From assembly GCF_000424445.1 (NCBI RefSeq), contig NZ_AUJX01000039.1:1-36497 (forward strand): DNA of 36,497 nucleotides. Reading direction: 5' to 3'. Origin of the DNA: Oribacterium sp. NK2B42 (GTDB taxonomy: Bacteria > Bacillota > Clostridia > Lachnospirales > Lachnospiraceae). The notes under the pieces were generated by a model. That model saw only the letters and a list, made by a program, of their open reading frames with translations, was not told the DNA's origin and did no database searches. A program made the position numbers and the translations under genes. Shown piece by piece: positions 6,989 to 23,402 of the stretch. Position 1 is the stretch's first letter. Each line of letters opens with the position of its first letter.

Positions 6989-7258
6989 GAAAATGCAAGG
7001 GATGCGCGGCGGCCCACGGGATTGAAAGAACATCTCGTGCCGTTTGTTCGTCTAGTTCGCACTGACGTGCGCCCTAGCCGTACAAACAACACGAGATGTT
7101 CTTTCAACCCTAAGGAGAAAATGCCATCAGATTGCGCTACGCGCAGGCATTTTCGTTTGATTTCGGCTTACGCCGAAACAGCCTCGCCGCCTGGGGGCAT
7201 CAGCATTTCTTACGAAACGCTGATAAGGCAAGCCTAGCCGCACATCGCTTGCATTTTC
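6989..7258 (-). repeat. Structured hairpin repeat element, copy A (full-length form)
   Basis: This is a 270-bp element bounded by imperfect terminal inverted repeats (GAAAATGCAAGGGATG at 6989 and its complement ending at 7258). An 18-bp perfect stem (7022-7039 with 7090-7107), extended by 6 bp (7042-7047 with 7082-7087), carries a 34-nt tip at 7048-7081 with core GCACTGACGTGC. Then come three small hairpins at about 7117-7154, 7160-7177 and 7199-7224; two of these have GTAA loops when read on the minus strand. It sits 66 bp after the KamA-like stop codon, in that gene's 3' UTR orientation, and shares its architecture with 16362-16707 and 23248-23402. The remaining 7259-7323 shows nothing more. 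The name and function are unknown to me. Confidence 0.85.
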
Positions 7259-7323
7259 TTCCGTTTTCTATATTCTTACTGTTAGTTGATGAAAAAAACA
7301 TTCAGGTGTTCTTTCAACCTTTT

Positions 7324-8445
7324 TTAGTCCCCGTTGGGTATATGATCCTCTAGCCAGCAATTGTCTTTGGGATCGCAGAGGAAAATCCTGGATTGATCCT
7401 GCGGGGCTTTGGACTGGTGATATTTGAAGAGCATGGTTTTACCGTCCGTCATAGGACCGAGGATTTCAATCTTCCCTGTCCTATGAGACATGACGTAATG
7501 AAGGCTCTTGGACTGGCCGTTCATTCGTTTCCTGGTTTCCTCAACCAGCCTGGAGCCTTCGCGGATAGGAATCTGGAATTCGTTAAGAACGCCCTTGGCC
7601 GGACGGCACTGGAATATGTAATAGGGAATGACCCGATAGCTGAGTAATCTGTTCTGCAGGGTGCTCAGCACCTCAGGGTCATCGTTGATTCCCCGAAGGA
7701 GAACCGTCTGGTTTCGAACTATACAACCTGCTGCATGAAGGGAATGAATGGCTTTTTTTGCTTCCGGAGTGAGTTCTTTAGGATGGTTAAAATGTGTGAC
7801 TATGATGATTTGTTTTATGGCGCAGTATTTCCTGAGTATTTCCAAAAGCTCTGAGTCATCATAAATCCGCATGGGAAGTACAACAGGTGTACGGGTTCCG
7901 ATACGGATGAAATCCAGTTGCTCAAGCTTGCTAAAGGTTTCGAGATAGCGTTCTATGACTTCGTTTGAGTTGATGAGTGCGTCTCCACCGGATAGCAGGA
8001 TATTGTCGATTTCAGAATGGTTTTTGATATATGCAAGCATTGCAGGAATTTGAGAGGCGATCTCATCGGAAGTGTTGCCGACCATACGTTTACGGAAACA
8101 GTGGCGACAGTACATGGCACACTGGTTGGTGGTCAGAATCAGGGCTGTCTGTTGATATTTATGCTGTAAACCTGCGACAACAGTGTTGTCCGTCTCACCT
8201 GACTGATCTTCCAGGCCGCCATCGATAAATTCCGCCGCAGTGGGAATACACATTTTGCGGATGGGATCCTGATCGTCATTTTTGTCTATCAAGCTCAGGT
8301 AGTAGGGAGTGATACAGATAGGGTATTTCTCTTCGATATGTCTGATCTGATCAGCAATTTCGGGTGAAAGACTGAAGACTTTCTCTAACTGGTCGACAGA
8401 TCGGATACATTGGGACATAAGGGAAGATAGTGTAGAATTACTCAT
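7324..8445 (-). CDS. KamA-family (lysine 2,3-aminomutase-like) radical SAM protein, substrate uncertain
   Basis: The protein has 373 residues, shorter than lysine 2,3-aminomutase (about 416) and nearer EpmB-like proteins. Cluster cysteines C109, C113 and C116 (CAMYCRHC) bind the SAM-ligated 4Fe-4S cluster. R118 matches the carboxylate-binding Arg of the clostridial aminomutase. LSGGDALI and GTRTPVVLP follow, and K325 in HRTGK is the likely PLP lysine. Aligned from memory to C. subterminale KamA, both aspartates that hold the lysine side-chain amine are missing: D293 is R281 (QCR) and D330 is S320. A true lysine aminomutase is therefore unlikely; a basic residue here recalls glutamate 2,3-aminomutase. 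The gene seems monocistronic, with repeat element A downstream. Confidence 0.8.
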   Translation of the reverse strand: MSNSTLSSLMSQCIRSVDQLEKVFSLSPEIADQIRHIEEKYPICITPYYLSLIDKNDDQDPIRKMCIPTAAEFIDGGLEDQSGETDNTVVAGLQHKYQQTALILTTNQCAMYCRHCFRKRMVGNTSDEIASQIPAMLAYIKNHSEIDNILLSGGDALINSNEVIERYLETFSKLEQLDFIRIGTRTPVVLPMRIYDDSELLEILRKYCAIKQIIIVTHFNHPKELTPEAKKAIHSLHAAGCIVRNQTVLLRGINDDPEVLSTLQNRLLSYRVIPYYIFQCRPAKGVLNEFQIPIREGSRLVEETRKRMNGQSKSLHYVMSHRTGKIEILGPMTDGKTMLFKYHQSKAPQDQSRIFLCDPKDNCWLEDHIPNGD

Positions 8446-8504
8446 ATGCTCTCCTTTCTTTTTCTCTGGAAAGATGTTTTCAAAACCATTTTTGTTTAGT
8501 GAAT

Positions 8505-8651
8505 ATGGACATTGATAAAAAGAATTTCTTTATCGACTGTCACGATAGCTGCACTGTTTTAATAACTAACTATAAAGAAATTATATACCAAATAAAAGAA
8601 ATTCACGATTCAAACGAAAAAAAAGAAGCGGTTTTTTCCATTGCCAGATAA
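8505..8651 (+). CDS. Possible small protein of 48 residues, unknown
   Basis: An open frame runs from ATG 8505 to TAA 8649-8651 in an AT-rich gap between two minus-strand genes. The product is hydrophilic, with alternating Ile and charged residues and two Cys near the start (IDCHDSC). It ends directly before a 16-bp hairpin that could terminate it. Against it, there is no convincing Shine-Dalgarno sequence (a GTG two codons upstream is an alternative) and I recognise no relative. The gap 8446-8718 holds nothing else apart from the hairpin. Confidence 0.22.
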   Translation: MDIDKKNFFIDCHDSCTVLITNYKEIIYQIKEIHDSNEKKEAVFSIAR

Positions 8652-8693
8652 AATACAGCCGGGACATGATCATAAATATGTCCCGGCTGTATT
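8652..8693 (-). terminator. Intrinsic terminator of the trpXYZ operon, possibly bidirectional
   Basis: A perfect 16-bp stem, 8652-8667 with 8678-8693 around a 10-nt loop, starts 25 bp after the trpZ stop. The T-run on the minus side is short (TTAT). The plus side ends in GATTTAT. Confidence 0.7.
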
Positions 8694-8718
8694 GATTTAT
8701 CAGCGATCGAGTTTGTGA

Positions 8719-9534
8719 TCAAACTCTTTCTTTTGTTGATAGTAATATTCTGTCGTTATTGAGACCTTTTCCGGCGCGCTCCTCAAACTTATCAAGGAGG
8801 TCCTGGATGGTCATGTGGGAGCGCTCTTCGCCCTTGACGTCGAAGACGATGTTTCCGCTGTTCATCATCAGGGTTCGGTTGCCAAGCTCCAGAGCCTGGT
8901 TCATATTGTGGGTTACCATGAGGCAGGTAATGTGGTTCTCTGCTACTATCTTTTTGGTAAGCTCCAGAACCTTGGCTGCGGTTGAAGGATCCAGAGCCGC
9001 GGTGTGTTCGTCAAGAAGAAGGATTTTTGGAGTTACCATGGTAGCCATAAGGAGTGTCAGAGCCTGGCGCTGTCCTCCGGAAAGAAGTCCCACAGGGTGA
9101 TCCATACGATCCTCAAGTCCCATATCAAGAAGTGAAAGCTGCTGTCTGAACTTCTCTCTTTCTGCCTTTGATACATGGCTGAAAAGACCACGCTTATGCT
9201 CATTGGCCCTGAGATATGCAACGGAAAGGTTCTCTTCTATGGTCATGTGTGGTGCTGTACCCATGAGAGGATCCTGGAAAAGGCGTCCGATGTAGCGGCT
9301 TCTCACATGCTCCTGCTCGAAGGTGATGTCCTTTCCGTCAAGCTCTATGAAACCCGAATCGGTGTAAAAGGAGCCGGCGATGGCATTGAATAATGTAGAC
9401 TTTCCGGCACCGTTTGAACCGATAATGGTTGCAAAATCCCCATCTTCAAGAGTGAGGCAAAGGTCTGTCAGAGCTCTTTTTTCATTTACTGTTCCTGTGT
9501 TAAAGGTTTTAAAGATGTGTTCGATCTTAAGCAT
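8719..9534 (-). CDS. trpZ: Tryptophan ABC transporter, ATP-binding protein
   Basis: The protein has 271 residues. Walker A GSNGAGKST is at about 39-47, the signature is LSGGQRQALT near 150 and Walker B is ILLLDEHTAALDP near 170, with a following switch His. It energises import with TrpY and TrpX. Its start overlaps the trpY end by 8 bp. The symbol rests on the Trp-specific T-box upstream of trpX and on the known trpXYZ gene set in Firmicutes. By sequence alone one would only say an ABC_sub_bind-type uptake ATPase. Confidence 0.85.
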   Translation of the reverse strand: MLKIEHIFKTFNTGTVNEKRALTDLCLTLEDGDFATIIGSNGAGKSTLFNAIAGSFYTDSGFIELDGKDITFEQEHVRSRYIGRLFQDPLMGTAPHMTIEENLSVAYLRANEHKRGLFSHVSKAEREKFRQQLSLLDMGLEDRMDHPVGLLSGGQRQALTLLMATMVTPKILLLDEHTAALDPSTAAKVLELTKKIVAENHITCLMVTHNMNQALELGNRTLMMNSGNIVFDVKGEERSHMTIQDLLDKFEERAGKGLNNDRILLSTKERV

Positions 9535-10480
9535 CTGCCTTGCCTCCTCTCATAGCTTTTCTTTCCTGCATTGCAGTGAGCTGCTTATGTTTAAATGCAA
9601 TAAGCTGCTTTGCTCTCGGCGCTGCGATGGCGATGGCAACGATAACTGCCGATACCAGCTTAAACGCTTCGGTAGGAACATTGAGACGAAGGGCGATGGA
9701 AATAATGAAACGATACAGGCAGGAACCGATGACCATGCCAAGTATCCGTACTATCATCTTTCCTTTTCCACACAGGGTTTCACCGATGACAAGAGACGCA
9801 AGGGCTATGGTTACCATACCTGTACCAAGGTTAATGTCACAGGTCTTGTTGTACTGACCGATAAGGCAGCCTGCAAGACCTGTAAGTGAGTTTGAGAAGC
9901 AAAGTCCGACGGTAATGGTAAATATAGGGTTTATGGAGGAAGCTCTCACCATGGCAGGGCTGTCGCCGGTTGCACGGATGGAAAGACCGAGAGTCGTACC
10001 AAGGAACCATTTGATAAGTGCTGAGACCATAATAACTACTACTGCCAGCAGAATAAGTGTGGACCAGTCCTTCCAGAAGTCAGAATCACTGAGACCCTTG
10101 AAAAGAGAAAAAATGGTGTCTGTTCCGAAGATGGAAACATTGGAACTGAAACCCATAACGGCAAGGTTTACCGTGTAAAGTCCTGTGTTTACAATGATTC
10201 CGGCGAGAATGCTTTCCACGCCGAATTTGGTCTGGAGAAGTGCCGTCACATATCCGGAGCATATGCCCGCAAGCATTGCTGCAGGGATCGCCAGGAAGGG
10301 GTGACCTGCTATGGTGATGATCGCGCCTACTGCGCAGCCAAGGGTATAGCAGCCATCAGTTGAAAGGTCACAAATGTCAAGGATTGAATAACTGATGAAA
10401 AGTGAAAGTGCAACAAGTGAATAGATAAGTCCCACCTCAAGTGCGGTGCGGACTATGCCTGCTGTTAAAAATCCGGTCAA
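9527..10480 (-). CDS. trpY: Tryptophan ABC transporter, permease
   Basis: The protein has 317 residues from a TTG at 10480, which has AGGAGG 8 nt upstream. The frame stays open to a GTG at 10522, but that codon lies inside a palindromic repeat and has no ribosome site, so I prefer TTG. The sequence has about eight to nine hydrophobic segments and resembles branched-chain-amino-acid-type inner-membrane permeases (YSLVALSLFISY near the N-terminus, then GCYTLGCAVGA). It forms the channel for TrpX-delivered substrate. The 3' end overlaps trpZ. The 190-bp gap to trpX contains the GGGGACGG palindrome and a terminator-like hairpin. Confidence 0.83.
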   Translation of the reverse strand: MTGFLTAGIVRTALEVGLIYSLVALSLFISYSILDICDLSTDGCYTLGCAVGAIITIAGHPFLAIPAAMLAGICSGYVTALLQTKFGVESILAGIIVNTGLYTVNLAVMGFSSNVSIFGTDTIFSLFKGLSDSDFWKDWSTLILLAVVVIMVSALIKWFLGTTLGLSIRATGDSPAMVRASSINPIFTITVGLCFSNSLTGLAGCLIGQYNKTCDINLGTGMVTIALASLVIGETLCGKGKMIVRILGMVIGSCLYRFIISIALRLNVPTEAFKLVSAVIVAIAIAAPRAKQLIAFKHKQLTAMQERKAMRGGKADA

Positions 10481-10504
10481 TGGAATTTCCTCCTGAAAAT
10501 TTCG

Positions 10505-10584
10505 ACCACCGGGGTTGTCCACCGGGGACGGTTATCGTCGGCGAGAACCGTCCCCGGTGGACAGGTGAAAACCGTCTCGGTGGA
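10505..10584. repeat. GGGGACGG palindromic repeat cluster inside the trp operon
   Basis: A 16-bp perfect stem (TCCACCGGGGACGGTT at 10518-10533 with its complement at 10546-10561) surrounds a 12-nt loop. Degenerate half copies flank it at 10505-10516 (ACCACCGGGGTT) and 10570-10584 (AACCGTCTCGGTGGA). The same unit, with a 20-bp stem, is at 32727-32772. It lies between trpX and trpY. Confidence 0.85.
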
Positions 10585-10604
10585 TAAGTGTTACAAAACA
10601 AAGT

Positions 10605-10631
10605 GCTTCCCGGTCGGTTTCCCCGGGAAGC
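10605..10631 (-). terminator. Hairpin between trpX and trpY, possible partial terminator
   Basis: GCTTCCCGG (10605-10613) pairs with CCGGGAAGC (10623-10631) across a 9-nt loop. On the minus strand it is followed by ACTTTGTTTTG, a weak T-run. A leaky terminator or stabilising hairpin here would let the binding protein be made in excess over the membrane components, as is common in ABC operons. Confidence 0.45.
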
Positions 10632-10670
10632 TTGAGAGTGTATTGCTGTTATGATTATATATTAATATGA

Positions 10671-11798
10671 TTACTTTGAGAATTCCTTCTCTGTCTTTGT
10701 TTCAACGATCTGTGTGCAAAGCGGCTCAATGGCTTTCTTTACATCATCAAGGTTGAGACCGAGAACCTCGCAGGTATCTGTGTTTATGGTTGCGATACCG
10801 TTATCGAAGGTCTGAACTGAAGTTGTTGCAACATCACTGCCGTTTACAAGAATATCGGCAACCATATCAGCTGTAGCAACTCCGAGGTATGAGTAGTCAA
10901 CTCCGTAGCCCATGAAAGCACCGTTAAGAGCGAAGCTGTCGGCACCTGCGTAGTGAGCGATCTTTGCATCCCGGAACTTCTCGTAGATACCAAGCTCAGC
11001 CTGCTGGATGGTATTGTCGGTCGGTGTAAATACCGCATCAACGCCTTCTGCCACAAGAGCATCTGCCGCCGCCTGAATCTCGTCAGTCTTTGTTCCTGTT
11101 TTTTCAATGTACTTGATGCCCTTATCGTCAAGATACTTCTTGGCATCCTCTATAGGCTGCTTTGAAGCATCCTCTGAATTTGAGTAAAGAAGACCTACAT
11201 AATCTGTTTCCGGGTTTACTGCAAACATGAGATCCATGATGGCATTTGTATTAAGTGCATCTGAGGTGCCGGTAATGTTTGATCCGGGAGTTTCCATGGA
11301 GCTTACCAGCTTTGCTGTTACCGGATCTGAAACTGCTGAAAATACAACCGGGATACCCTTATCCTCCACAGCTGCCTGAACAACCTGTGCAGCAGGAGTT
11401 GCGATTGGGATGATAACGTCAACTTCATCAGATATAAGCTCACTTGCGATCTGATTGAGAACCGTTGCATCTCCCTGACCGTTGAAGGTGTAGTCTGCAT
11501 AGTTAAATGTTACACCCATATCTCCGGAAAGCTTATCAAGCTCAGAAGCAACATTGTCCTTGATCTGGTTAAGTGACGGATGATCCATGAAAAGAACTAT
11601 ACCTACTTTGAAATCTTTCTTATCAGCTGAGTCTGCATCAGCATTTTCTTTTGAGGTCTCTGATCCAGCTGCATCAGTGGCTGCTGCTTCAGAAGCTGCG
11701 GCTCCAGATGTAGCCTCAGGTGTTGTGTTTGAACTGCAGCCCATAAGAGATGCTGCCATAAGAACTGCCATAGATGCTGCGATTAACTGTTTTTTCAT
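10671..11798 (-). CDS. trpX: Tryptophan ABC transporter, substrate-binding lipoprotein
   Basis: The protein has 375 residues. ATG 11798 follows GGAGGAAAAATCAA. It has a lipoprotein signal, a KKQ start, a hydrophobic core and lipobox SLMGC with the lipidated Cys near residue 21. A low-complexity Ala/Ser/Thr linker runs to about residue 60. The rest is an ABC_sub_bind-type (PF04392) periplasmic-binding fold with the opening FKVGIVLFMDHPSLN. It is anchored outside the membrane and delivers substrate to TrpY. Tryptophan is inferred from the UGG specifier of the T-box upstream. It is the first gene of the trpX-trpY-trpZ operon. Confidence 0.87.
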   Translation of the reverse strand: MKKQLIAASMAVLMAASLMGCSSNTTPEATSGAAASEAAATDAAGSETSKENADADSADKKDFKVGIVLFMDHPSLNQIKDNVASELDKLSGDMGVTFNYADYTFNGQGDATVLNQIASELISDEVDVIIPIATPAAQVVQAAVEDKGIPVVFSAVSDPVTAKLVSSMETPGSNITGTSDALNTNAIMDLMFAVNPETDYVGLLYSNSEDASKQPIEDAKKYLDDKGIKYIEKTGTKTDEIQAAADALVAEGVDAVFTPTDNTIQQAELGIYEKFRDAKIAHYAGADSFALNGAFMGYGVDYSYLGVATADMVADILVNGSDVATTSVQTFDNGIATINTDTCEVLGLNLDDVKKAIEPLCTQIVETKTEKEFSK

Positions 11799-11917
11799 TT
11801 GATTTTTCCTCCATAATGTAAAAAGATGTTTACTGGAGCGCCATTGTGATACAGATTTATCGTCCTCTCCCGGGTTCAGGCATCGTACTTGGATTGAAAG
11901 CCTGCCGACCTTGGACT

Positions 11918-12210
11918 AAAAAGAAAAGCCCCATGTCAGGATCACTCCCGACATGAGGCGAATTTATAAATCCGTGGTACCACTCATATTACCTTTATAA
12001 AAAGGTCACTCTTCACATACCAGCATATGTGCTGCCTGATAACGGTGCAGAACCCGTTGCCGCATACTCGACTTCAGATATTCAAGTCTTTCTGAGCACC
12101 CTCCAGAGTCCATTCACTTATCCGCCCGTACCGCAATCCCACCAGCTGCGGCTCTCTGTGACGATAAAGATAAACTACTTCTCTCTGTCATCGGTTTTGT
12201 TTTATTAGTT
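11918..12210 (-). promoter_or_regulatory. T-box riboswitch, tryptophan specifier
   Basis: Read on the minus strand, the leader has AGAGAG and GGTGG elements of stem I. A specifier TGG (12112-12110) stands directly before ACTCTGGAG. Further on is the T-box sequence TGGTACCACGG (11982-11972), and then a terminator: arms 11950-11959 and 11928-11937 followed by a T-rich run to 11918. UGG specifies tryptophan. Uncharged tRNA-Trp should pair at the specifier and T-box and prevent termination, inducing trpXYZ during Trp starvation. The coding start is about 120 nt downstream. The exact 5' boundary is set by the promoter at 12218-12246. Confidence 0.92.
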
Positions 12211-12217
12211 TAACGGT

Positions 12218-12246
12218 ACTTTAGCACGTTAAATTCAAAGTGTCAA
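12218..12246 (-). promoter_or_regulatory. Promoter of the T-box / trpXYZ operon
   Basis: On the minus strand TTGACA (12246-12241) and TAAAGT (12223-12218) are 17 nt apart. The promoter starts 13 bp after the kdgK stop, and no terminator separates the two transcription units. Confidence 0.65.
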
Positions 12247-12258
12247 ATGTTTTTTTAC

Positions 12259-13290
12259 TTACCGATTCATTTCACTATGGAATCCTGTTGAGTAGTGATC
12301 TTCGATGACAGCGTTGATCTCCTTCAGATTGCTCTGAGGCAGGTCGCCGGGGATGGTGTTCTTCATTGCGGAGGTAGCATTACCGTACTTCACTGCTTCT
12401 CTCACGTCTCCGCCGGAACTGATGAGACCGTACAGGGCGCCTGAAATGTAGGAATCTCCGGAACCGATACGGTCTACAACGTCGATGTTCTCATATGGCG
12501 GCTCCTCGAAGTAAGCATCCTTTTCAGCATCATAAGCCAGTGAACCGAAGGAATGAGACTTCGGACTGTGCACAGTTCTCTGTGTGGCAAAAACAGCCTT
12601 TATAGGATAATCCTTTGTAAAGCTCTTGATCATTTCGCGGCAGCTGCCATCTTTAAGGAAGGTAAGCTTTGCGGTGGACTCAGAGCAGAAGAAAATGTCT
12701 ACATAAGGTAGGATTTCAAGAATAGTCTCTCTTGCCTCGTCTCCCGACCAGAGGTTTCCTCGGAAGTTCACATCAAAGGAAATAAGGGCTCCGTTTTCCT
12801 TGAATTTCTTTATGGCCTCAATAGTTGTTTTTCGGATCTCGGGTGAAAGCGCAAGGGTGATTCCTGAAGTATGGAAACATTTTGTTTTCTCATAAACCTC
12901 CGGAGAGATCTCATCAGAGGATAATGAGAAAAAGCTGGAATTACGTCTGTCGTAGATTACCTGCGGCTTTCTCGGATATGCGCCGTACTCGTAAAAGTAA
13001 ACAGCTACTCTCGCTTCCGGTGAATCATCATATATAAAGAAATCATCGGAAACACCGTAGCTTCGGATGGTTCCCTTTATATACTGACCGAGGTCGTGTG
13101 AAGGAAGCTTTGAAATGATACCTGTGTGTAGGCCCAGAAGGGATGCTCCGACGGCAACATTAAGCTCTGCTCCGCCTACATTTTTCTCAAAGACATCGCT
13201 TCTTGCGATACGCTCATTTCCCGGAGGAGAAAGTCTCAGCATAAGCTGGCCCATGGTAACAAGGTCAAAAGAACGGTTTGGAAAATTCAT
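12259..13290 (-). CDS. kdgK: 2-keto-3-deoxygluconate kinase, PfkB family
   Basis: The protein has 343 residues from ATG 13290, which has AAGGAG upstream; a frame start at 13329 lacks a ribosome site. The PfkB features are an N-terminal GGAELNVAVGASLLG block, SFDVNFRGNLW near the middle, and the C-terminal DRIGSGDSYISGALYG, where the GSGD aspartate is the catalytic base. KdgK phosphorylates 2-keto-3-deoxygluconate to KDPG in hexuronate breakdown. Assignment over other PfkB sugar kinases rests on the divergent lacI-uxaC pair. It is transcribed from 13348-13376 and shares a control region with lacI. Confidence 0.85.
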   Translation of the reverse strand: MNFPNRSFDLVTMGQLMLRLSPPGNERIARSDVFEKNVGGAELNVAVGASLLGLHTGIISKLPSHDLGQYIKGTIRSYGVSDDFFIYDDSPEARVAVYFYEYGAYPRKPQVIYDRRNSSFFSLSSDEISPEVYEKTKCFHTSGITLALSPEIRKTTIEAIKKFKENGALISFDVNFRGNLWSGDEARETILEILPYVDIFFCSESTAKLTFLKDGSCREMIKSFTKDYPIKAVFATQRTVHSPKSHSFGSLAYDAEKDAYFEEPPYENIDVVDRIGSGDSYISGALYGLISSGGDVREAVKYGNATSAMKNTIPGDLPQSNLKEINAVIEDHYSTGFHSEMNR

Positions 13291-13344
13291 GATCGGCTCC
13301 TTTATTATTGTCTGAAATACATGTCTCAAATTTTTTATAATGCA

Positions 13345-13373
13345 TTGATTTTATATCAAGATATGGTTATAAT
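13345..13373 (+). promoter_or_regulatory. Promoter of lacI-type regulator / uxaC
   Basis: TTGATT (13345-13350), a 17-nt spacer and TATAAT (13368-13373). The probable transcription start, near 13380, lies next to the operator at 13384-13397. It overlaps the oppositely directed kdgK promoter almost completely. Confidence 0.7.
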
Positions 13374-13376
13374 CAA
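13348..13376 (-). promoter_or_regulatory. Promoter of kdgK
   Basis: On the minus strand TTGATT (13376-13371), a 17-nt spacer and TAAAAT (13353-13348). Its elements interlock with the plus-strand lacI promoter, so polymerase can probably occupy only one at a time. Confidence 0.6.
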
Positions 13377-13383
13377 GATAAAT

Positions 13384-13397
13384 TGTAAGCGGTTACA
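13384..13397. promoter_or_regulatory. LacI-family operator
   Basis: TGTAA-GCGG-TTACA is a 14-bp palindrome with perfect 5-bp arms, of the form bound by LacI/GalR proteins. It sits just downstream of the lacI start point and upstream of the kdgK promoter. Autoregulation and control of kdgK are inferred. Confidence 0.65.
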
Positions 13398-13421
13398 TAA
13401 AATTTAAAAAAGGATTTACAA

Positions 13422-14468: not shown

Positions 14469-14513
14469 TAAATAAATCATAAATAAAGACAATGCTTATG
14501 GAGGTAAGTTAAA

Positions 14514-15929: not shown

Positions 15930-15936
15930 TAAGTAA

Positions 15937-15965: not shown

Positions 15966-15979
15966 AACTTTTAAAAACA

Positions 15980-16329
15980 ATCGAGTATCGTAATAAGCCG
16001 GGTTATGTATCAAGTGGTCATCTATCTAGGGCGTATGTCGCCATACGTCTCAATCAACCTACCCGGAAACTGACGAGCAGCCATATGTTTCCTATTTGGT
16101 CTTTCTTCAGATGGGGTTTATAATGCCACAGCTGTTACCAGCTGTGCGGTAGTCTCTTACACTGCCCTTTCACCCTTACCGGTCGAAGCCGGCGGTCTAC
16201 TCTCTGTTACACTTTCCTGTGCGTCACCGCAACCTGCCGTTAGCAGGCATCCTGCTCTGTGAAGCCCGGACTTTCCTCTCCCAGCCGGTTTCCCTTATAC
16301 TGGCAGCGACCACATCCGATACTCGAGCC
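15980..16329 (-). ncRNA. rnpB: RNase P RNA (class A type)
   Basis: On the minus strand a P1 helix is formed by CGAGTATCG (16325-16317) and CGATACTCG (15990-15982). The 5' part carries GAGGAAAGTCCGGGCT, the conserved P4 region; the 3' part ends with the matching TAACCCGGCTTA. The interior holds the GGTAAGGGTGAAA and ACAGAG elements typical of RNase P RNA. It is the ribozyme that matures tRNA 5' ends. The promoter is at 16333-16361 and the terminator at 15937-15965. The ends are estimated to within a few nucleotides. Confidence 0.95.
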
Positions 16330-16332
16330 TAT

Positions 16333-16361
16333 AGTCTACAATTAAATGGTTTACTTTGCAA
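16333..16361 (-). promoter_or_regulatory. Promoter of rnpB, abutting repeat element B
   Basis: On the minus strand TTGCAA (16361-16356), 17 nt, TAGACT (16338-16333). The -35 box touches the outer end of repeat element B at 16362, whose T-rich terminus takes the position of an upstream promoter element. Confidence 0.65.
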
Positions 16362-16707
16362 GGAAAAAATGCAAGGGATGGGTGGCGAGGAAAAAATGCA
16401 AGGAATGCGTGGCGGCCCACGAGATTGAAAGGACAGCCGGCTTGAAATGTTCGCCCCAGCTGCACTGACGTGCATCTGGTTCGTACATTTCAAGCCGGCT
16501 GTTCTTTCAACTCCATCAAGGAGAAAATGCCATTAGAATGCGCTACGCGCAGGCATTTTCGTTTGATTTCGGCTTACGCCGAAACAGCCTCGCCGCCTGG
16601 GGGCATCAGCATTTCTTACGAAACGCTGATAAAGCAAGCCTAGCCACACATCCCTTGCATTTTTTCCAATTCACGTATTGGCTGGCCGGATCCCTTGCAT
16701 TTTTTCC
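16362..16707 (-). repeat. Structured hairpin repeat element, copy B (nested, with duplicated ends)
   Basis: The inner element, 16389-16667 (279 bp), has terminal inverted repeats beginning GGAAAAAATGCAAGG. Its main stem is 26 bp (16425-16450 with 16485-16510) with one G-T pair, around a 34-nt tip identical to that of copy C. The three small hairpins of copy A follow at about 16521-16560, 16565-16582 and 16605-16630. A second left end (16362-16388) and a second right end (about 16683-16707) lie outside it, as if one element had entered another or the ends had been duplicated. It lies 57 bp after the kinase-gene stop codon and directly against the rnpB promoter. Confidence 0.85.
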
Positions 16708-16763
16708 AATTTACACAGTGACTATCCTAAATTAAGGTAACCGGCTTTCAATATTCACATTAT

Positions 16764-18416
16764 TTAGCCAACATCAAGGCAGCTGCCACCTATGAACTCG
16801 CGAATAATTGAATTCTGAGGTATCAGCTCGGGGCTGATGGGGAGGATGTAGTCCAGGAATTTCAGGAGACGCTTGGCTTCCTGGTATTCGGGATCGGTGG
16901 GTTTTATCTGGAAGAGTAAGGGGGCTGCGAAGATCTTCAGTACAGGGAGCTCGTAGATCATGCTGGAATTTACCATGACATCGGCTCTTTCCTGGTATGG
17001 GAAGATGTTCATGTTCTCGCCTCTTCGTACGTTTTCCCACATGGCGATGGTATCCTTTGCTTTATAGCCTCTGGTGCGGTTGTCACGCACTATACGTCTC
17101 AGGAGACGGCCGTCAGTTGTCGGGATGCGGTTGTGGCTGTCGACATTGACCTGGGTCAGGGCTGAGATATATATGCGGTATTTAGCGTCTTCCGATAAAG
17201 CATAGGACATTTCATCATTCAGGCAATGGATGCCTTCGATGACCAGAACGTCATTTGGTTTTAATCTGCAAAAATCACCCTTGTATTCTCTCTTTCCGGT
17301 GAAGAAATTGTACCTCGGGAGCTGAATGGTTTCTCCGTCCAGAAGCTTCAGCATATCATTGTTAAAAAGCTCCACATCCACACACTTTATGGATTCGAAA
17401 TCCTTTTTGCCGTTTTCATCCAGGGGAGCAAGTTCGCGGTCCCGGAAATAGTTATCGACGGAAATTGGATGAGGATTAAGTCCAAGGGCCCTCAGCTGAA
17501 TGCTGAGTCTTCTTGAAAAAGTGGTTTTTCCGGAGCTTGAGGGGCCCGCGATCATAACCACTTTTTTCTTCTTCTCTTCTATGTCCATAGCGATGTTGCC
17601 GATGGTTTTCTCGAACAGTGCCTCCTGCATGAGGATGAGGTCATCGGAGTGACCGTCCACTACCATTTCATTCAGTGATCCGATACAGGAGCAGCCGATT
17701 TTTTTTGCCCACTTTGAGGAGGTCTGCTGAACGTTATAGAGCTTATCAAAGGGGACAAAATCTGTTATCTTATCGGGTTCCTGACGGGATGGAAGGAGCA
17801 ATACAAACCCCTCTCCGTACGGTATAAGATCATAGAACTTTATATAGCCTGTACTCGGAACCATATAGCCATAGAAGTAATCCCTGAAGCCGTCCATGTC
17901 ATAAACATTAACATTGGCAGTCATACGGAAACGGAAAAGCTTTTCTTTACTGTGCATTCCGACCTTACGGAAAAAATCTCTGGCTTCGTTGGTTCTCATG
18001 GAGCTTTTTGTGATGGGGATATTCATCTCGTGATAAACGTCCATCTGATCCTTGACCTTTTTCAGAAGCTCAGGCGTGATTTCCACGCCTCCGTTCAGGT
18101 GACAGTAGTACCCGCGTCCCAGAGTATAATCTACTATAACTTCGAAACCTTTCACGTCGGAGCATAGCTTATAGAAAGCCTTCAGCATCATAAAGATGGC
18201 TGAACGCTCATAGGTCATCTGGCCTATTTTTGACCGTCCGGTTATGAATTGTATATTCCCGTCTTCCTTGCAGGGGTTAAAAAGCTCATATAATACGCTG
18301 TTAAATCTGGCAAGTAAGATATCTTCCTTGTAAAGTGACTGGAATTCCTTTGCCATATCAAGAAAGGTTGTGCCTTCCGGGAACTCATAGTTATCTCCGT
18401 TTAATGTAATGATCAT
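16764..18416 (-). CDS. Uridine kinase-like nucleoside kinase with N-terminal TGS/ThrRS-like region
   Basis: The protein has 550 residues from ATG 18416, which has GGAG 6 nt upstream; the frame runs 14 codons further without a ribosome site. Residues 1-60 look like a TGS domain (MIITLNGDNYEFPEGTTF). About 60-200 resembles the second domain of threonyl-tRNA synthetase (YTLGRGYYCHL). From about 285 there is a phosphoribulokinase/uridine-kinase domain with P-loop GPSSSGKTT, HPISVDNYF and VIEGIHCLN. This architecture is widespread in Clostridia and annotated as nucleoside kinase; uridine/cytidine phosphorylation is expected but not shown. The gene stands alone between a terminator (18457-18493) and repeat element B. 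Confidence 0.85.
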   Translation of the reverse strand: MIITLNGDNYEFPEGTTFLDMAKEFQSLYKEDILLARFNSVLYELFNPCKEDGNIQFITGRSKIGQMTYERSAIFMMLKAFYKLCSDVKGFEVIVDYTLGRGYYCHLNGGVEITPELLKKVKDQMDVYHEMNIPITKSSMRTNEARDFFRKVGMHSKEKLFRFRMTANVNVYDMDGFRDYFYGYMVPSTGYIKFYDLIPYGEGFVLLLPSRQEPDKITDFVPFDKLYNVQQTSSKWAKKIGCSCIGSLNEMVVDGHSDDLILMQEALFEKTIGNIAMDIEEKKKKVVMIAGPSSSGKTTFSRRLSIQLRALGLNPHPISVDNYFRDRELAPLDENGKKDFESIKCVDVELFNNDMLKLLDGETIQLPRYNFFTGKREYKGDFCRLKPNDVLVIEGIHCLNDEMSYALSEDAKYRIYISALTQVNVDSHNRIPTTDGRLLRRIVRDNRTRGYKAKDTIAMWENVRRGENMNIFPYQERADVMVNSSMIYELPVLKIFAAPLLFQIKPTDPEYQEAKRLLKFLDYILPISPELIPQNSIIREFIGGSCLDVG

Positions 18417-18456
18417 AATAAACTCCGTTCGTAAACAGCTGTTGGACTTGTTTTTC

Positions 18457-18493
18457 AAAAACAGGATTCCCCGGAAAGCTGCGGGAAATCCTG
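18457..18493 (-). terminator. Intrinsic terminator after the nif3 operon
   Basis: CAGGATT (18462-18468) pairs with AATCCTG (18487-18493), with further imperfect C/G pairing inside. On the minus strand five T residues follow (18461-18457). It is about 85 bp downstream of the nif3-like stop. Confidence 0.65.
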
Positions 18494-18578
18494 GGACAGT
18501 TATTTCTATAGTTGTTTTTAAGATGTGAAGTATATTGCTCTCATGAAATCCGGATCAATAAGCGGAGACTATGAAAAA

Positions 18579-19451
18579 TCACAGAGCCTTGGCCGGAAAA
18601 CGGTAGTAGTCCTTGACGATATCAGCCTCAGGAAAACTGTCTCTGAGGAAATTTCCGATATGCTCAACAAAGATGTGCTCCAGACCATAGTGTCCGGCAT
18701 CGATGAGACTTACACCTTCTTCGTTAAGATCGATTCCTTCATGATGTCCCATATCACCGCTTATAAATGCATCAACATGAAGAGACAATACTTCTTTAAG
18801 CTCGCTTCTGCCGGAACCCGGACAGCAGGCGATAGTTTTAATTGGTGCCCCTGCGTCATAAAAGCTTACAAACGGAAGGTCAAATTTTTCCTTCACAAGC
18901 TGAGCCAGTTCATCACAGGTCATGACATTGGGAAGCTTTGCAACAAATCCGATGCCATATTCTTTTATTTCGACAGTATTTCCGGAATTATCAGTTACGA
19001 GCTCCGGGGCAGAAATGCTGAGACCTTCCGGGGTTCCGTTTTCGTTACCCACGGGAACATATCCTGTGGGGTCCATGATCTTGGATTTCTCGAAGCCAAG
19101 TGTCTCGCATACTATGTCTCCCATGCCTCCGGGACAGCTGTCATAGTTTGTATGCATAGAATAAACAGCTACATCGTTATGAATCAGATCCATGAGCTTG
19201 ATTCCAAGAGCCGAGCTATCATTTATGCATTTGATTCCTTTAAAAATGATTGGGTGGTGAGTTACGATCATGTCGCAGCCGGATTCAATGGCTTCACTGA
19301 TTACATCCATGGTTGCGTCCAGTGCAACACATACTCTGAATACCTCTTTGTCTCTTCTGCCCACAAGAAGTCCGGGATTATCCCATTCGCAGGCTGATGC
19401 CGGTGGTGCCAAAAGGTCAAGTCTGTCTGCAATATCCCCTACTGTTAACAT
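18579..19451 (-). CDS. NIF3-like dinuclear metal protein (YqfO/YbgI family)
   Basis: The protein has 290 residues. The metal-binding blocks are THHPIIF near residue 64, SMHTNYD near 98, and DMGHHEGIDL with DAGHYGLEH near the C-terminus. The family forms toroidal hexamers with two metals per subunit. It is often annotated GTP cyclohydrolase I type 2, but its role is not settled. The start overlaps the trmK end by 7 bp, as in many Firmicutes, and the two are probably co-transcribed from the dnaG side. A long frame on the opposite strand (18525-19397) is its shadow. Confidence 0.88.
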   Translation of the reverse strand: MLTVGDIADRLDLLAPPASACEWDNPGLLVGRRDKEVFRVCVALDATMDVISEAIESGCDMIVTHHPIIFKGIKCINDSSALGIKLMDLIHNDVAVYSMHTNYDSCPGGMGDIVCETLGFEKSKIMDPTGYVPVGNENGTPEGLSISAPELVTDNSGNTVEIKEYGIGFVAKLPNVMTCDELAQLVKEKFDLPFVSFYDAGAPIKTIACCPGSGRSELKEVLSLHVDAFISGDMGHHEGIDLNEEGVSLIDAGHYGLEHIFVEHIGNFLRDSFPEADIVKDYYRFPAKAL

Positions 19452-20134
19452 AAGTACCCCTCCAATGCTTTTAAACAGTGTTTATGTGCTTCTTTTATTG
19501 ATTCATTCTGCGTTTTCTGAAGGATGCTTTCATACCGTTTCTTTTCTTTCAGAAGAAACTTATGAAGTGTTTCATCCTTCTTGTGCAGCAAGATTCCTCC
19601 GTAGATGAAGTCTTCTTCGTTTTTGTAGAAGTCTTCGCCTGATGGTTCCTCTTCCCTGGAACTATCAGCCGAAATAACAGTCATCACTGTGTAATATTTC
19701 CCATCCTCCATGAGCATCGCCTCGTCTCTTATGCTCATGCGGTTATCTATGAGAAAGTGCCGGAAATGTTCTATATCCGACTGTGGTGAAAGAATAAAAG
19801 TATCAAAATCCCGAAGGCGGTCCTGAAGTATCTTTTCCATCAGAAGTCCGCCCATGCCGGCAATGACTACAGTGTCTGCTTCGTGAGGCAAAACTTCTTT
19901 TAATCCATCACTGAGTCGTGTTTCTATTTTGTCCGCAAGACCGGCATTTATGATGTTGCTTTTTGCGGAACTGAGCGGTCCTTCATTGATGTCACAGGCG
20001 ATAGCCCTTTTGACCTTCCCCTTTAAAACCAGCTCTATGGAAACATAAGCATGATCACAGCCTATATCCGCCACGGTTTCCGAATCCGGAACCAGCTCCA
20101 CGATTTTTTTAAGTCTGTCAGGTAAATTGGTCAT
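19445..20134 (-). CDS. trmK: tRNA (adenine-22-N1)-methyltransferase
   Basis: The protein has 229 residues. It is a Rossmann-type SAM methyltransferase with VADIGCDHAYVSIEL near residue 20 as motif I. Further blocks are ACDINEGPL, VVIAGMGGLLM near 90 and LSPQSD near 115, the TrmK signature. It methylates A22 in the tRNA D-loop. Its ATG shares one base with the dnaG stop (TAATG), so translation is coupled and no separate strong ribosome site is present. Downstream it overlaps the nif3-like gene. Confidence 0.9.
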   Translation of the reverse strand: MTNLPDRLKKIVELVPDSETVADIGCDHAYVSIELVLKGKVKRAIACDINEGPLSSAKSNIINAGLADKIETRLSDGLKEVLPHEADTVVIAGMGGLLMEKILQDRLRDFDTFILSPQSDIEHFRHFLIDNRMSIRDEAMLMEDGKYYTVMTVISADSSREEEPSGEDFYKNEEDFIYGGILLHKKDETLHKFLLKEKKRYESILQKTQNESIKEAHKHCLKALEGYLC

Positions 20135-21897
20135 TATAGTTTAAGGTTCTGAAGATCCGACTGCTGCTTGAAAAGCTCTGTAAGTCTGTGCGGATCTACT
20201 TCGTTTTCTATTTTCGTATTAAGTGAGGTGAGTTTAATGTTTCTGATGATGTCTTCAAGCCCCCGCTTAAATTCATTTTCGTCGGTATCCTCCGAAAGAA
20301 GATTTCCGTTAAACATGCCTGCCACTCTCTCATAGTCTTCGTCGGAATCCCGGAACCGGTCAAGAATCTCATTGGCAGGAGTTTCGTTATAAACCATGGT
20401 GAGAACCGTTCCCATGATTTCATCACTCATATCCTCCGGAAGTATAAACTCATGTACCTTAGGAATAAGCTCCGGTTTTTCCTGAAGCCAGGTTATAAGC
20501 TGCTTCTCTGATTTCTGCAGAGCCGTTTCCTTCCTGCGAACCTTGTCCTCCTTTGGAGTGAAGTTTGTCTGAGTATACATCCTCTCATTAAGAGGTGATG
20601 ACTGACGTTCCCTGAGATCGCTCATGTTATTCACAAGCTTTCTCAGACTGTCAAGGTCGATAAGCTGCTCTCTTGCAACGGCCTTCACATAGTTTTCTCT
20701 TTCGATAGGTTCTTTTATGTCACTAAGCTTTGAGGCTACTTCATTTGTGTACTGTGTCATTCCGGCAGGATCAGAAAGATCGTAATCCTGCTTCATTACA
20801 TCTATGAGCCACAGGAAGCTGTTTTTGGCGTTGTCGATGCGATCCTGAAATGCCTCAACCCCCATGGCCTTTATAAACTCATCAGGATCCTTGTAGGGCT
20901 TCAGGTTTATGACTCTTGTGTTAATGCCTACGGTCCGAAGCATTGGCATGGCTCTTTTGGCTGCATTGATACCGGCACCGTCCGAGTCATAGGTTAATAT
21001 AACATCATCCACATATCGTTTTATAAGGCGGCACTGCTGGTCGGTAAGTGCGGTTCCGAGAGAGGCAACGGCATTGGTAAAGCCTGCCTGATGCATCTGG
21101 ATAACGTCCATGTAGCCTTCGCAAAGAATGAAATATTTCTTTCTGGATTTCTTTGCGTAACACAGACCGAAAAGGTTTCTTGATTTTTCAAAGAGCTTTG
21201 TCTCGGGACTGTTCAGGTATTTCGGTTCTCCGTCACCGAGAACACGGCCTCCGAAACCTATAACCCTGTTATTGGCATCCATGATAGGGAATATGACACG
21301 GTTAAAGAACTTGTCATAGATTCCTTTTTCCGAGTAATTAATAAGTCCGGACTGATGGAGTAAATCCTCGGAATATCCTGCGGACTTAAGGTACTGGTAG
21401 AGTCCGTCTCTGGTCTGATCCGCATAGCCGAGCCCCCAAAGCCGTAAGGTCTCATCACTGAGCTCACGCTTCTTGAAATAGTTCATGCCGATCTGGCCTT
21501 TTTTGTCTCTCAGGGCATTATAAAAATAAACCGCAGCCTTTTTGTTAATGTCAAGGAGCTGAACCCTGAGGTCATTTTCCTTTTTTTCTTCCTCCGACTG
21601 ATTTATCTCGGGAAGCTTATAGCCTACATCATCCGCTACTTTTCGGATAGCCTCGGGAAAAGTAAGGTTCTCGTATTCCATGGTGAATCGGATCACATCT
21701 CCGCCCTTACCGCAGCCGAAGCAGTGAAATATCTGCATTCTGGGGTTAACGGAAAAGGATGGAGTTTTTTCGCCGTGGAATGGGCACAGCCCAAAGTAAT
21801 TGGCTCCCTTTTTCTTTAAATTCACGTACTTTCCGACCACGTCAACTATATCTGCCCGTGACCGGAGTTCCTGAAGTATTTCATCAGAATAACGCAA
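20134..21897 (-). CDS. dnaG: DNA primase
   Basis: The protein has 587 residues from TTG 21897. I prefer this to ATG 21912 because AGGAGA lies 6 nt upstream of the TTG and the product then begins RYSDEI as in relatives. The CHC2 zinc finger uses C38, H41, C59 and C62. The catalytic TOPRIM core has LCEGYMDVIQMHQ and LTYDSDGAG, followed by KDPDEF. The C-terminal helicase-binding region is poorly conserved, as usual. It makes RNA primers at the replication fork. In many Firmicutes rpoD follows dnaG; here trmK follows directly with a one-base overlap. Confidence 0.95.
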   Translation of the reverse strand: MRYSDEILQELRSRADIVDVVGKYVNLKKKGANYFGLCPFHGEKTPSFSVNPRMQIFHCFGCGKGGDVIRFTMEYENLTFPEAIRKVADDVGYKLPEINQSEEEKKENDLRVQLLDINKKAAVYFYNALRDKKGQIGMNYFKKRELSDETLRLWGLGYADQTRDGLYQYLKSAGYSEDLLHQSGLINYSEKGIYDKFFNRVIFPIMDANNRVIGFGGRVLGDGEPKYLNSPETKLFEKSRNLFGLCYAKKSRKKYFILCEGYMDVIQMHQAGFTNAVASLGTALTDQQCRLIKRYVDDVILTYDSDGAGINAAKRAMPMLRTVGINTRVINLKPYKDPDEFIKAMGVEAFQDRIDNAKNSFLWLIDVMKQDYDLSDPAGMTQYTNEVASKLSDIKEPIERENYVKAVAREQLIDLDSLRKLVNNMSDLRERQSSPLNERMYTQTNFTPKEDKVRRKETALQKSEKQLITWLQEKPELIPKVHEFILPEDMSDEIMGTVLTMVYNETPANEILDRFRDSDEDYERVAGMFNGNLLSEDTDENEFKRGLEDIIRNIKLTSLNTKIENEVDPHRLTELFKQQSDLQNLKL

Positions 21898-22035
21898 GGT
21901 GAATCTCCTCATCTATTAACGCTGCTTTTGGAGCCTTGATATCTGACACACAGATGCACCTCTGACCGACTCTTCAAAGCATGTTTTTTTTGTTATTTTT
22001 GGCTGACAAATGTATGTCGGTCTATCCGGCTCCTG

Positions 22036-23094
22036 TTAGAATTTCTGCCATCCTATGGGGACAAAATATTCTTTAAATTTGTATATACAGTAATCATCCG
22101 TCATGCCGGCAATGTAATCACATACACTTCGTTCATGTGCCAGCAGGATTTTGTTTTCTTTATCAGGGTCATCTTTACTGATGCCTGAAAGGGCATTCTC
22201 AAGCATAACCATGTACTCTTTTGTCATGGACTCGGGATTATCCATGTAATATTTAAAAAGAAGTCTGATCATGCGATGAACCTTGACTTCCTCTTTTTTT
22301 GCCTCACCACCCATATATACATGGTTAAACATCCACATACGAAGTGACTGCATAGCCTTTTCGGTGGTTGGTGACATACTGAGTTCAGTTTTATCTTTGG
22401 AACTGTATATCACATCGTGGATAAGCGTGTTAAGTCGTTCCTTTACCGAGTGTCCGAGAACATCTGTTATCTCCCGCGGGATCTCTTCTTCTTTCATGAG
22501 TCCGGCCCGGATGGAATCATCGGTGTCATGATTGATATAGGCAATCTTATCTGCGAAACGAACTGCCTGTCCTTCAAGTGTATGTGGATGACCGGAGGTA
22601 CGGTGATTAAGGATACCGTCACGTACTTCTTTTGTAAGGTTCAGTCCCTTTCCTCCTTTTTCAAGGACCTCTACAACACGTACACTCTGTTCAACATGTG
22701 AGAAGCCGTTGTGGCAAAGCTCATTAAGAATTCGTTCTCCGCTGTGTCCAAAAGGTGTATGGCCGAGATCATGTCCCAGAGCTATGGCTTCAATTAGATC
22801 TTCATTGAGTCTTAAGGCTTTTCCAAAGGTGCGGGCAATCTGACTTACCTCCAGGGTATGGGTAAGTCTGGTGCGGTAATGGTCTCCTTCGGGTGCGATA
22901 AATACCTGTGTTTTGTGTTTAAGTCTTCTGAAGGCTTTGCAATGTATGATCCGGTCTCTGTCACGTTCGTAGCAGGGGCGGATGTCATCCGGATCTTCAT
23001 ATGTATCACGGCCTGAGGACTCGGCTGACAGGGCTGCATAGGGTGACAATGTGATCCGCTCAAGTTCTTCAAGTTCTTCACGTATACAGCTCAT
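22036..23094 (-). CDS. dgt: dGTP triphosphohydrolase-like HD-domain protein
   Basis: The protein has 352 residues. ATG 23094 has GGGGGA just upstream. HD-domain residues occur in TRLTHTLEVSQIAR, ALGHDLGHTPFGHSGE and DKIAYINHDTDD, the H...HD...D pattern of dNTP triphosphohydrolases. The N-terminal RDRIIHCKAFRRLKHKTQVF is characteristic of the bacterial dGTPase-like group. Substrate range is not visible; such proteins cleave dNTPs to nucleoside and triphosphate. It lies 138 bp upstream of dnaG, a common arrangement, and could be the first gene of the dgt-dnaG-trmK-nif3 unit. Confidence 0.9.
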   Translation of the reverse strand: MSCIREELEELERITLSPYAALSAESSGRDTYEDPDDIRPCYERDRDRIIHCKAFRRLKHKTQVFIAPEGDHYRTRLTHTLEVSQIARTFGKALRLNEDLIEAIALGHDLGHTPFGHSGERILNELCHNGFSHVEQSVRVVEVLEKGGKGLNLTKEVRDGILNHRTSGHPHTLEGQAVRFADKIAYINHDTDDSIRAGLMKEEEIPREITDVLGHSVKERLNTLIHDVIYSSKDKTELSMSPTTEKAMQSLRMWMFNHVYMGGEAKKEEVKVHRMIRLLFKYYMDNPESMTKEYMVMLENALSGISKDDPDKENKILLAHERSVCDYIAGMTDDYCIYKFKEYFVPIGWQKF

Positions 23095-23247
23095 AGTGTC
23101 CCCCAGATTATAAAAAATTTATAAATATATGATACCATTTTGGAGCTCAATCCGCAATATATTGGGAGCATCTGTGCATGAAACACTACAGAGTGTAAGG
23201 CGATTGTAATGCAATTTTTTAAATTCGTAAGGTTGTGGAATGGGACA

Positions 23248-23402
23248 GAAAATGCAGGGGATGCGCGACGGCCCACGAGATTGAAAGAACATCCGGCACA
23301 GGTATGTTCGCCCCAGCTGCACTGACGTGCATCTGGTTCGTACATGCCTGTACCGGATGTTCTTTCAACTCGCAAGCCTAGCCGCACATCCCCTGCATTT
23401 TC
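23248..23402 (-). repeat. Structured hairpin repeat element, copy C (short form)
   Basis: This 155-bp element has terminal inverted repeats (GAAAATGCAGGGGATG and its complement). A 27-position main stem (23281-23307 with 23342-23368) has one wobble and one mismatch. The 34-nt tip at 23308-23341 is identical to that of copy B. The three-hairpin module of copies A and B is missing; the right arm joins CTCGCAAGCCTAGCCG directly. It lies 46 bp after the ridA stop. The rest of 23095-23447 is AT-rich leader of dgt without other recognised features. Confidence 0.85.

Follow-up and report, generated by a model that had tools for sequence, protein, structure and literature searches.

A dispersed hairpin repeat of Oribacterium that keeps its pairing while its stem sequence varies

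Bacterial genomes often carry small dispersed hairpins. REP/REPIN elements are linked to RAYT (Y1) transposases, and in integron attC sites structure is kept over sequence, bulges are conserved and the role falls to one strand. The hairpin element of Oribacterium described here would resemble attC sites in these three respects, but its copies are scattered single sites. The bcr1-bcr18 repeats, as presented in excerpts of three papers, are found in the Bacillus cereus group only, measure 100-400 bp, reach tens of copies in the case of bcr1, and are MITE-like, with a predicted structure and partial transcription in UTRs (PMC3446304, PMC6542083, PMC2267715); their mobility is tied to a TTTAT motif (PMC6542083). 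Compared by description and not by sequence, bcr repeats and the Oribacterium element are both group-restricted, MITE-like and structured. However, no duplication of the TTTAT kind was noticed for the latter, which shows paired changes at its ends and block exchange of its inner hairpin, neither of which is mentioned for bcr in the same excerpts. The pneumococcal BOX, RUP and SPRITE repeats are dispersed and tightly folded; the terminal repeats of BOX and RUP pair in the fold, BOX is modular, and SPRITE is terminator-like and enriched near gene 3′ ends (excerpts of PMC3049150). The Oribacterium element is likewise a dispersed folded repeat with paired terminal repeats (as BOX and RUP) and a modular build (as BOX), but it has freely varying paired stems and an inner hairpin swapped as a block, and the words ‘compensatory’ and ‘covarying’ are absent from the paper on BOX, RUP and SPRITE. 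REP and REPIN elements are, like ours, palindromic, intergenic, multi-copy and miniature (excerpts of PMC3733652 and PMC3116915). REPs are, however, 20-40 bp long (PMC3733652), as against one hairpin of ~155 nt here, and the distribution of Y1 transposases does not follow that of the Oribacterium element.

Three copies, A, B and C, lie in the window, i.e. the whole 36,497-nucleotide stretch of Oribacterium sp. NK2B42 that was analysed. Their parts are as follows.

6988..7259, minus strand, taken as sense (that of the structured RNA): copy A, long form; its inner part, 7013-7115, scores 76.3 bits on minus and 53.6 on plus.
7022..7107, minus strand: inner hairpin of copy A, TTGAAAG...CTTTCAA; the G013 orthologue has the same one, that of G011 another paired hairpin.
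7111..7227, no strand given: module of ~117 nt inserted in copy A, missing in both orthologues (G013, G011).
16389..16667, minus strand: copy B, long form; 16421-16513 scores 88.1 bits on minus and 70.1 on plus.
16425..16510, minus strand: inner hairpin of copy B, from repeat analysis of the three copies.
16514..16633, no strand given: module of ~120 nt inserted in copy B, missing in the G013 orthologue.
16362..16388, no strand given: a second left arm of copy B, which lies outside the first and belongs to a nested layer (direct repeat D1; inverted repeats I2 and I5).
16668..16707, no strand given: stretch with a second right arm of copy B, likewise outside the first and part of the nested layer (D2, I4, I5), the repeated arm being 16690-16707.
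23247..23403, minus strand: copy C, short form, a complete match to the 155-position model (163.0 bits on minus, 106.5 on plus).
23281..23368, minus strand: inner hairpin of copy C, from repeat analysis of the three copies.

These positions agree to within 1 base with those given by an earlier sequence-only reading, which had described common ends, the TTGAAAG...CTTTCAA base and GCACTGACGTGC; all are found in the three copies. The middle stems are, as it had proposed, unlike and yet paired, the inner arms being 84%, 88% and 86% complementary in A, B and C. The additional length of A and B over C is a separate module of ~118 nt, flanked by the inner hairpin on one side and by the right arm on the other.

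What had been taken for a three-copy element occurs at ~30 places in the window genome (63 matches, both strands counted) and in 9 of 17 Oribacterium genomes. From stretches of eight genomes we collected 104 full copies (the full-length, better-strand rows out of 217 matches), 4 partial copies (window A, window B, L197 and L104:534), which entered the orientation count only, and one shortened copy, L155:1208-1312, excluded from the 104-copy set; G007 is a carrier by genome search and its copies are absent from that set. Scanning genome contigs for the core returned 20 stretches, 18 of them from Oribacterium, including strains KHPX15 and P6A1; the other two, from Rhizorhabdus and Novosphingobium, were taken as chance, the stretches themselves being unread. 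A search of 250 genomes of the family, two of them Oribacterium (G000, G008), gave a single match among the 248 of other genera, under stricter filters and with 12 candidates scored per genome, so that distant members may escape. This match (G114, locus L220) is an unrelated hairpin: its strands score nearly equally (71.7 versus 64.3 bits), TTGCGAG and its reverse complement are both missing from the stretch, and it was not counted. One exact match to the 17-base core pattern in a viral contig came without the rest of the element and was likewise taken as chance. No Rfam 15 family reached the gathering score on copies A-C when the whole window was scanned; at E≤1, four other loci gave weak sub-threshold miRNA models on or near copies, and a glmS match outside the element. 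Among the titles listed from the open-licence literature, none was recognised as describing the element, which is no proof of unpublished status.

Every copy folds as a single modular hairpin of ~70 pairs, in which an outer stem is followed by a core, the TTGAAAG/CTTTCAA clamp, a hypervariable paired stem and a tip. The core has a bulge and a triple G.U wobble, two of whose pairs are near constant (U.G in 104/104 and G.U in 103/104 copies; the third is U.G in 76/104). Over 55 pairs, 93.8% of cells are paired in the 104 full copies, as compared with 78.4 ± 0.3% in 500 shuffles and 34.7-51.3% when partners are slid by 1-3 columns, although the structure was predicted from the same alignment in which pairs were counted and is by that alone favoured over slid versions. 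Both-sided changes are seen in 44 of the 55 pairs, and the terminal repeats also vary in paired fashion, e.g. in L177, L195, L196 and L129. The alignment further contains conserved unpaired motifs, and its consensus energy is -62.2 kcal/mol for the sense strand versus -34.9 for the antisense strand.

Wobbles are strongly biased by strand. In strand-neutral folds of the 104 copies, G.T outnumbers A.C by 519 to 71 on the sense strand. With the three core wobble columns set aside, the window's minus strand shows 280 G.T against 61 A.C. Taken copy by copy, 93 favour G.T on the sense strand, 5 the opposite and 6 are ties, and the direction is shared by all eight genomes. The bias is, however, uneven: it is strong in the core (193 versus 8 in helix 2a) and moderate in the variable stem (59 versus 22), whereas the ten outermost pairs show little of it (19 versus 10) and the tip leans the other way (4 versus 16). 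Given this excess of G.T over A.C, the selected molecule is likely to be the minus-strand (sense) RNA. The kept pairing of a stem whose sequence varies speaks for selection acting on the shape of an RNA, and the earlier suggestion of selection on structure is well supported by the double-change pairs, by wobbles that hardly change next to stems that vary freely, and by the strand bias. Judging from these sequence comparisons, the element is probably a dispersed, structure-conserved RNA hairpin, so far seen only in Oribacterium, that behaves as a non-autonomous miniature mobile repeat. Beside gene 3′ ends, the hairpin may act as a transcript end signal or may have displaced one. Several observations weigh against this reading. 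The strand bias is uneven, as described. Near copies A, B and C, promoter-like matches are no commoner than in shuffled sequence (0, 2 and 1 found versus 0.6, 1.2 and 0.7 expected), and a terminator scan, whose loop limit of 3-8 excludes long hairpins, made no call on the element itself and one inside the module. Orientation relative to genes is only partly matched, with 43 copies co-oriented with both neighbours versus 20 antisense to both; the ORF caller is crude, and its two rule sets gave 43/24/20/15 and 44/22/19/14 plus incomplete cases. The copies between divergent genes, the plain terminators beside some copies, the lack of a clean empty site with a target duplication and the spread of inner identity, all given below, count against it too.

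Paired drift does occur, but the sequence-only reading overlooked that the inner hairpin is also replaced as a block, which makes up much of the difference at a given locus. Inside the clamp, orthologous loci can hold another hairpin, the 118-nt module or nothing, with outer arms and flanks unchanged. At locus A, G013 has the same inner hairpin and no module, and the outer arms of G011 are identical to those of G013, its inner hairpin being different. The G011 orthologue of locus C contains the module, and the L177 locus has a hairpin in G000 and the module in G013 and G011. Between L105 and L188 the outer identity is 0.96 and the inner 0.61, whereas L105 and L185, at different loci, have inner hairpins of 0.95 identity. 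Among 23 close orthologous pairs (2 of the 104 copies, devoid of the segment motif, are left out), inner identity is below 0.7 in 8, intermediate in 9 and at least 0.9 in 6; thus exchange and drift both contribute. Nested copies and apical-deletion forms occur as well. Block replacement could be brought about by recombination between dispersed copies, perhaps initiated by breaks at the tip of the extruded hairpin.

One possible reading, though we hold it rather unlikely, is that the element is a bidirectional intrinsic terminator of unusual size, which recombination has spread and in which the inner hairpin is a passenger. An A-tract, a stem and a T-tract are present at both ends, the outer stem ending in ATTTTCT; some mini forms retain a well-paired outer stem, and the outermost pairs are, as seen above, without strong strand bias. 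Of the 44 cases with an antisense gene on the 3′ side, 29 have the stop of that gene 6-30 bases from the element. At locus C, where both neighbours are unchanged, G013, G014, G015, G016 and G010 carry plain minus-strand hairpins that resemble terminators (read from folds), and at the L116 locus another perfect palindrome stands in place of the element in G000. However, the terminator reading leaves the wobble core, the bias of helix 2a and the conserved tip unexplained, the T-tract is short (TTTTCT), plain terminators coexist with the element at some loci (by eye, in the flanks of L108, L118 and L177), and 15 of 102 copies have divergent genes on their two sides and so are away from any 3′ end. 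The sister hairpins of locus A in G014, G009 and G016 say little, because a different upstream gene stands beside them.

It is unlikely, in our opinion, that selection acts on one DNA strand folded as a single-stranded hairpin, similar to the substrates of ssDNA recombinases and transposases, with no RNA function. A one-strand bias alone cannot separate RNA from ssDNA, and the bias persists (51 versus 6 in 19 copies) where both neighbours are antisense, i.e. where sense read-through RNA is unexpected; the conserved unpaired motifs, the nested copies and the turnover at loci would also suit such a substrate. On the other hand, the near-constant G.U wobbles would fit RNA better, and the Y1 transposase family is untied to the element, being present in 5 of 9 carriers versus 4 of 8 non-carriers. 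The Y1 (IS200-like) family PF01797 was not found in carriers G010, G015, G016 and G009, the last only 73% complete, and was rejected as a partner for want of co-occurrence across the 17 Oribacterium genomes. A reverse transcriptase was rejected as well: PF00078 was not found in carriers G009 (73% complete) and G013 (98%, with most element matches), which is silent on past activity. A bolder reading, which strikes us as distinctly improbable, is that of a bacterial mobile element spreading via its own structured sense RNA, independently of neighbouring transcription and with an exchangeable apical hairpin cassette. As the wobble bias holds even where both neighbours are antisense, the RNA or strand under selection would then serve the element's own cycle and not host messages.

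We also doubt strongly that the element is just a MITE belonging to a known insertion sequence and mobilised in trans by a transposase that binds its terminal repeats. The element is short, intergenic, multi-copy and sometimes nested, and it has terminal inverted repeats, all of which are MITE traits, but these repeats undergo paired change (L177, L195, L196, L129), which a fixed transposase site would not be expected to do. Inspection by eye of the flanks of the 104 copies and of nine aligned orthologous loci showed neither a clean empty site nor a target duplication (the insertion-site search took in the flanks of 12 element loci, of which six were aligned besides the three in the window). 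In G000, 62 end matches with at most one mismatch include no facing pair 0.4-5 kb apart; one pair is 5.4 kb apart on C13.

The order of changes bears on arm-to-arm templated correction, which had been put forward as an alternative to selection. With 70 of the 104 copies linked to a nearest copy at >80% identity, and the count limited to pairs present in both folds, the nine links at ≤5% difference show 14 one-sided changes versus 1 double. In the following 5% steps the counts are 17 v 30, 140 v 108 and 103 v 70, double changes overtaking one-sided ones only as divergence grows; doubles not Watson-Crick on both sides were excluded (0, 4, 33 and 26 in the four bins), and the link L119/L177_7419, aligned out of register, contributed no pairs. 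As one-sided changes come first among close copies, compensation and not instant arm-to-arm copying is indicated, and templated correction is not supported as the main process. A selfish palindrome, whose pairing is kept solely by arm-to-arm templated repair in replication and without selection, is very unlikely: it would agree with paired changes in nearly all helices, terminal repeats included, and with apical-deletion forms, as expected of an unstable palindrome, but it predicts no strand bias, and plus-strand mismatches (G.U on the minus strand) should vanish under such correction, whereas the two one-strand non-Watson-Crick core pairs survive in all or all but one of the copies.

When the copies of a hairpin repeat are too similar, it is difficult to tell whether selection acts on its RNA, on its DNA or on neither. 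The stems of the probable RNA hairpin of Oribacterium vary enough to give hints, from the direction of wobbles and the order of changes, and the family offers natural intermediates: nested copies, apical deletions and orthologous loci with unlike inner parts. It is a natural system for studying drift, part swapping and intergenic settlement of such repeats, in which part exchange and the takeover of transcript ends become directly testable in named strains (KHPX15, P6A1).

All three copies of the element proposed from the sequence alone exist at the places claimed, with the shared terminal ends and the TTGAAAG/CTTTCAA clamp, and in each the middle of the stem differs yet is paired; the tip of all three carries GCACTGACGTGC. 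The features of the window are as follows.

5-175: Y1 (IS200-like) transposase gene fragment at the contig end
6988-7259, sense on the minus strand: copy A of the element
7111-7227: module of about 118 nt in copy A
16389-16667, sense on the minus strand: copy B
16514-16633: module in copy B
23247-23403, sense on the minus strand: copy C
36342-36497: Y1 transposase gene fragment at the other contig end

The concern that the element might belong to a named Rfam family was not borne out: at gathering score, a search of the window placed no family on the three copies and matched RNase P RNA, T-box and tRNAs elsewhere.

The element forms a single hairpin. From an alignment of 104 distinct full-length copies, drawn from 8 genomes, a 55-pair structure was predicted, and in this same alignment 93.8% of 5689 cells are paired, against 78.4 ± 0.3% in shuffles and 34.7 to 51.3% with slid partners, controls that leave the relatedness of the copies in. 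Changes on both sides are seen in 44 of the 55 pairs (covariation score 0.419 versus 0.141), including all of the ten outermost, which constitute the terminal repeats. The most constant parts are the clamp, parts of the tip and the core, where on the sense strand GGCTTGCGAG lies opposite CTCGTGGGCC, with U.G in 104/104 copies, G.U in 103/104 and a third U.G in 76/104. In a subfamily (L129, L135, L151, L128, L178, L176, L196) the middle stem contains A/T runs and the tip is longer; in most of its members the outer stems differ too, e.g. AGAATTCGG.

The wobbles are biased towards one strand. With a fold giving G.T and A.C equal score, the 104 copies show 519 G.T versus 71 A.C on the window minus strand, and 280 versus 61 when the three core wobble columns are left out. 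Per copy the bias is 93 to 5, with 6 ties, and its direction is alike in all 8 genomes; among copies antisense to both neighbouring genes (n = 19) it is still 51 to 6. By helix, G.T:A.C is 283:0 in the wobble triple, 193:8 in helix 2a, 59:22 in the variable stem, 19:10 in the outermost pairs, where there is hardly any bias, and 4:16 in the tip, where it is opposite; the bias therefore resides in the core and, to a lesser degree, in the variable stem. Orientation was set by a covariance model; for copies with both strands among the matches the two scores lie tens of bits apart, a gap that we attribute mainly to the core, and the variable pairs should thus have weighed little.

The sequence-only reading had proposed selection on structure or arm-to-arm templating as the source of the paired changes. 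Along a minimum spanning tree linking similar copies, taken in 5% steps of rising divergence (9, 9, 28 and 14 links), double Watson-Crick and one-sided changes number 1:14, 17:30, 140:108 and 103:70, counts in which events are non-independent and exchanged hairpins raise the doubles at high divergence. One-sided changes precede doubles, which is expected of compensatory selection and not of one-step templating; the former proposal is supported and the latter, as the main process, is not. Base pairs compared between orthologues gave 293 changes with both sides altered and pairing kept and 136 one-sided changes to or from G.U; pairing was lost through a change on one side in 304 cases and on both sides in 117. 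These counts include replaced-hairpin comparisons and misalignments.

Besides drifting, the inner hairpin, within the clamp, appears to be exchanged. Using both flanking proteins as criterion, 23 orthologous groups were found. At locus A, one other Oribacterium genome (G013) has the inner hairpin of the window with the module absent, and another (G011) combines outer arms identical with those of G013 and a different, paired inner hairpin. At the L105/L148/L188 locus, outer arms are 0.91 to 0.96 identical; the L105 inner hairpin is only 0.59 to 0.61 identical to those of L148 and L188, and shares 0.95 identity with the one in L185, which occupies a different locus. At the L177 locus, the place of the hairpin seen in the window genome (G000) is taken in G013 and G011 by the module; the outer stem also changes between genomes, with pairing retained. 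The three closest genomes give 23 pairs, of which 8 have an inner identity below 0.7, 9 lie at 0.7-0.9 and 6 reach at least 0.9; since several low-identity pairs have poor flanks too (about 0.5 over 60 bases), independent insertion is possible for those. The mini forms at L181 and L182 (G013) and L118 (G011) derive from the full element by apical deletion. At the L184 locus, which holds the element in G000, the G013 and G011 orthologues (L235, L239) have the same flanks and, between them, arrayed GACTCATAT-type repeats that have diverged.

Some copies are nested: exact flanking inverted repeats of at least 12 bases surround 7/104 copies (control 1/300), and 5 of these 7 resemble element arms. 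Outer-arm repeats at 46-nt spacing in the L016/L180 region (G000:C16:13171-13386) and L014 are possibly nesting remnants. The module (also in L010, L011, L201, L236 and L237) is dispersed, has its own small hairpins, is inserted next to the inner hairpin or replaces it, and has many further matches within the genus. In L237 (G011:C85:64060-64740) it bears an extra insert of about 80 nt in which inverted repeats are visible by eye, so that repeats there are nested three deep.

Copies A and C as DNA queries, together with a search for the pattern of the ends, revealed about 30 element places plus fragments in G000 (3.79 Mb, 95 contigs); the reversed-pattern control for the ends gave 0 matches. 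Of the 20 stretches matching the exact core pattern in the contig collection, 18 are from Oribacterium (family Lachnospiraceae). Plain DNA search detected the element in 8/17 genomes of the genus, in 0/20 from elsewhere in the family and in 0/24 from other families of the order, and a covariance model built from 22 copies matched 9/17 Oribacterium genomes. The family-wide search proposed earlier, run with this model on 250 genomes (2 of the genus), matched the window genome and, outside the genus, a single hairpin rejected as unrelated. Neither Y1 transposase nor reverse transcriptase families tracked the element carriers, and facing pairs of element ends 0.4-5 kb apart were absent from G000. 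Y1 fragments also lie at many other G000 contig ends, probably as a repeat that breaks assembly.

According to a crude ORF caller, the gene contexts of 108 copies (6 incomplete) are co,co 43, co,anti 24, anti,anti 20 and anti,co 15. At least one gene 3′ end is faced by 87/102 copies, the random expectation of three quarters being only somewhat lower; co,co and anti,anti are uneven (p 0.005, orthologues treated as independent). Antisense genes on the 3′ side of the element have their stop at a distance of 6 to 30 bases in 29/44 cases. Locus C, with both neighbouring genes conserved, has plain terminator-like minus-strand hairpins in G013, G014, G015, G016 and G010, and a short flipped variant in G009. 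Terminator-like hairpins occupy locus A in G014, G009 and G016, but the upstream gene there differs; at locus B, G011 is without the element. A terminator adjoins the element, by eye, at some other loci. A glmS ribozyme match (L179:2287-2435, 68.3 bits) begins about 87 bases past the element copy at L179:2045-2199.

As far as the portions of the literature available to us go, the element belongs in kind with bcr repeats and BOX/RUP/SPRITE, and differs in that its terminal repeats vary in a paired way and its apex is swapped as a block, neither being described for those repeats in these portions. Our results support a structured RNA with MITE-like dispersal, whose stem drifts by compensatory change and whose apex can be replaced; it would act at transcript ends, a role that we infer, as we do its route of spread.
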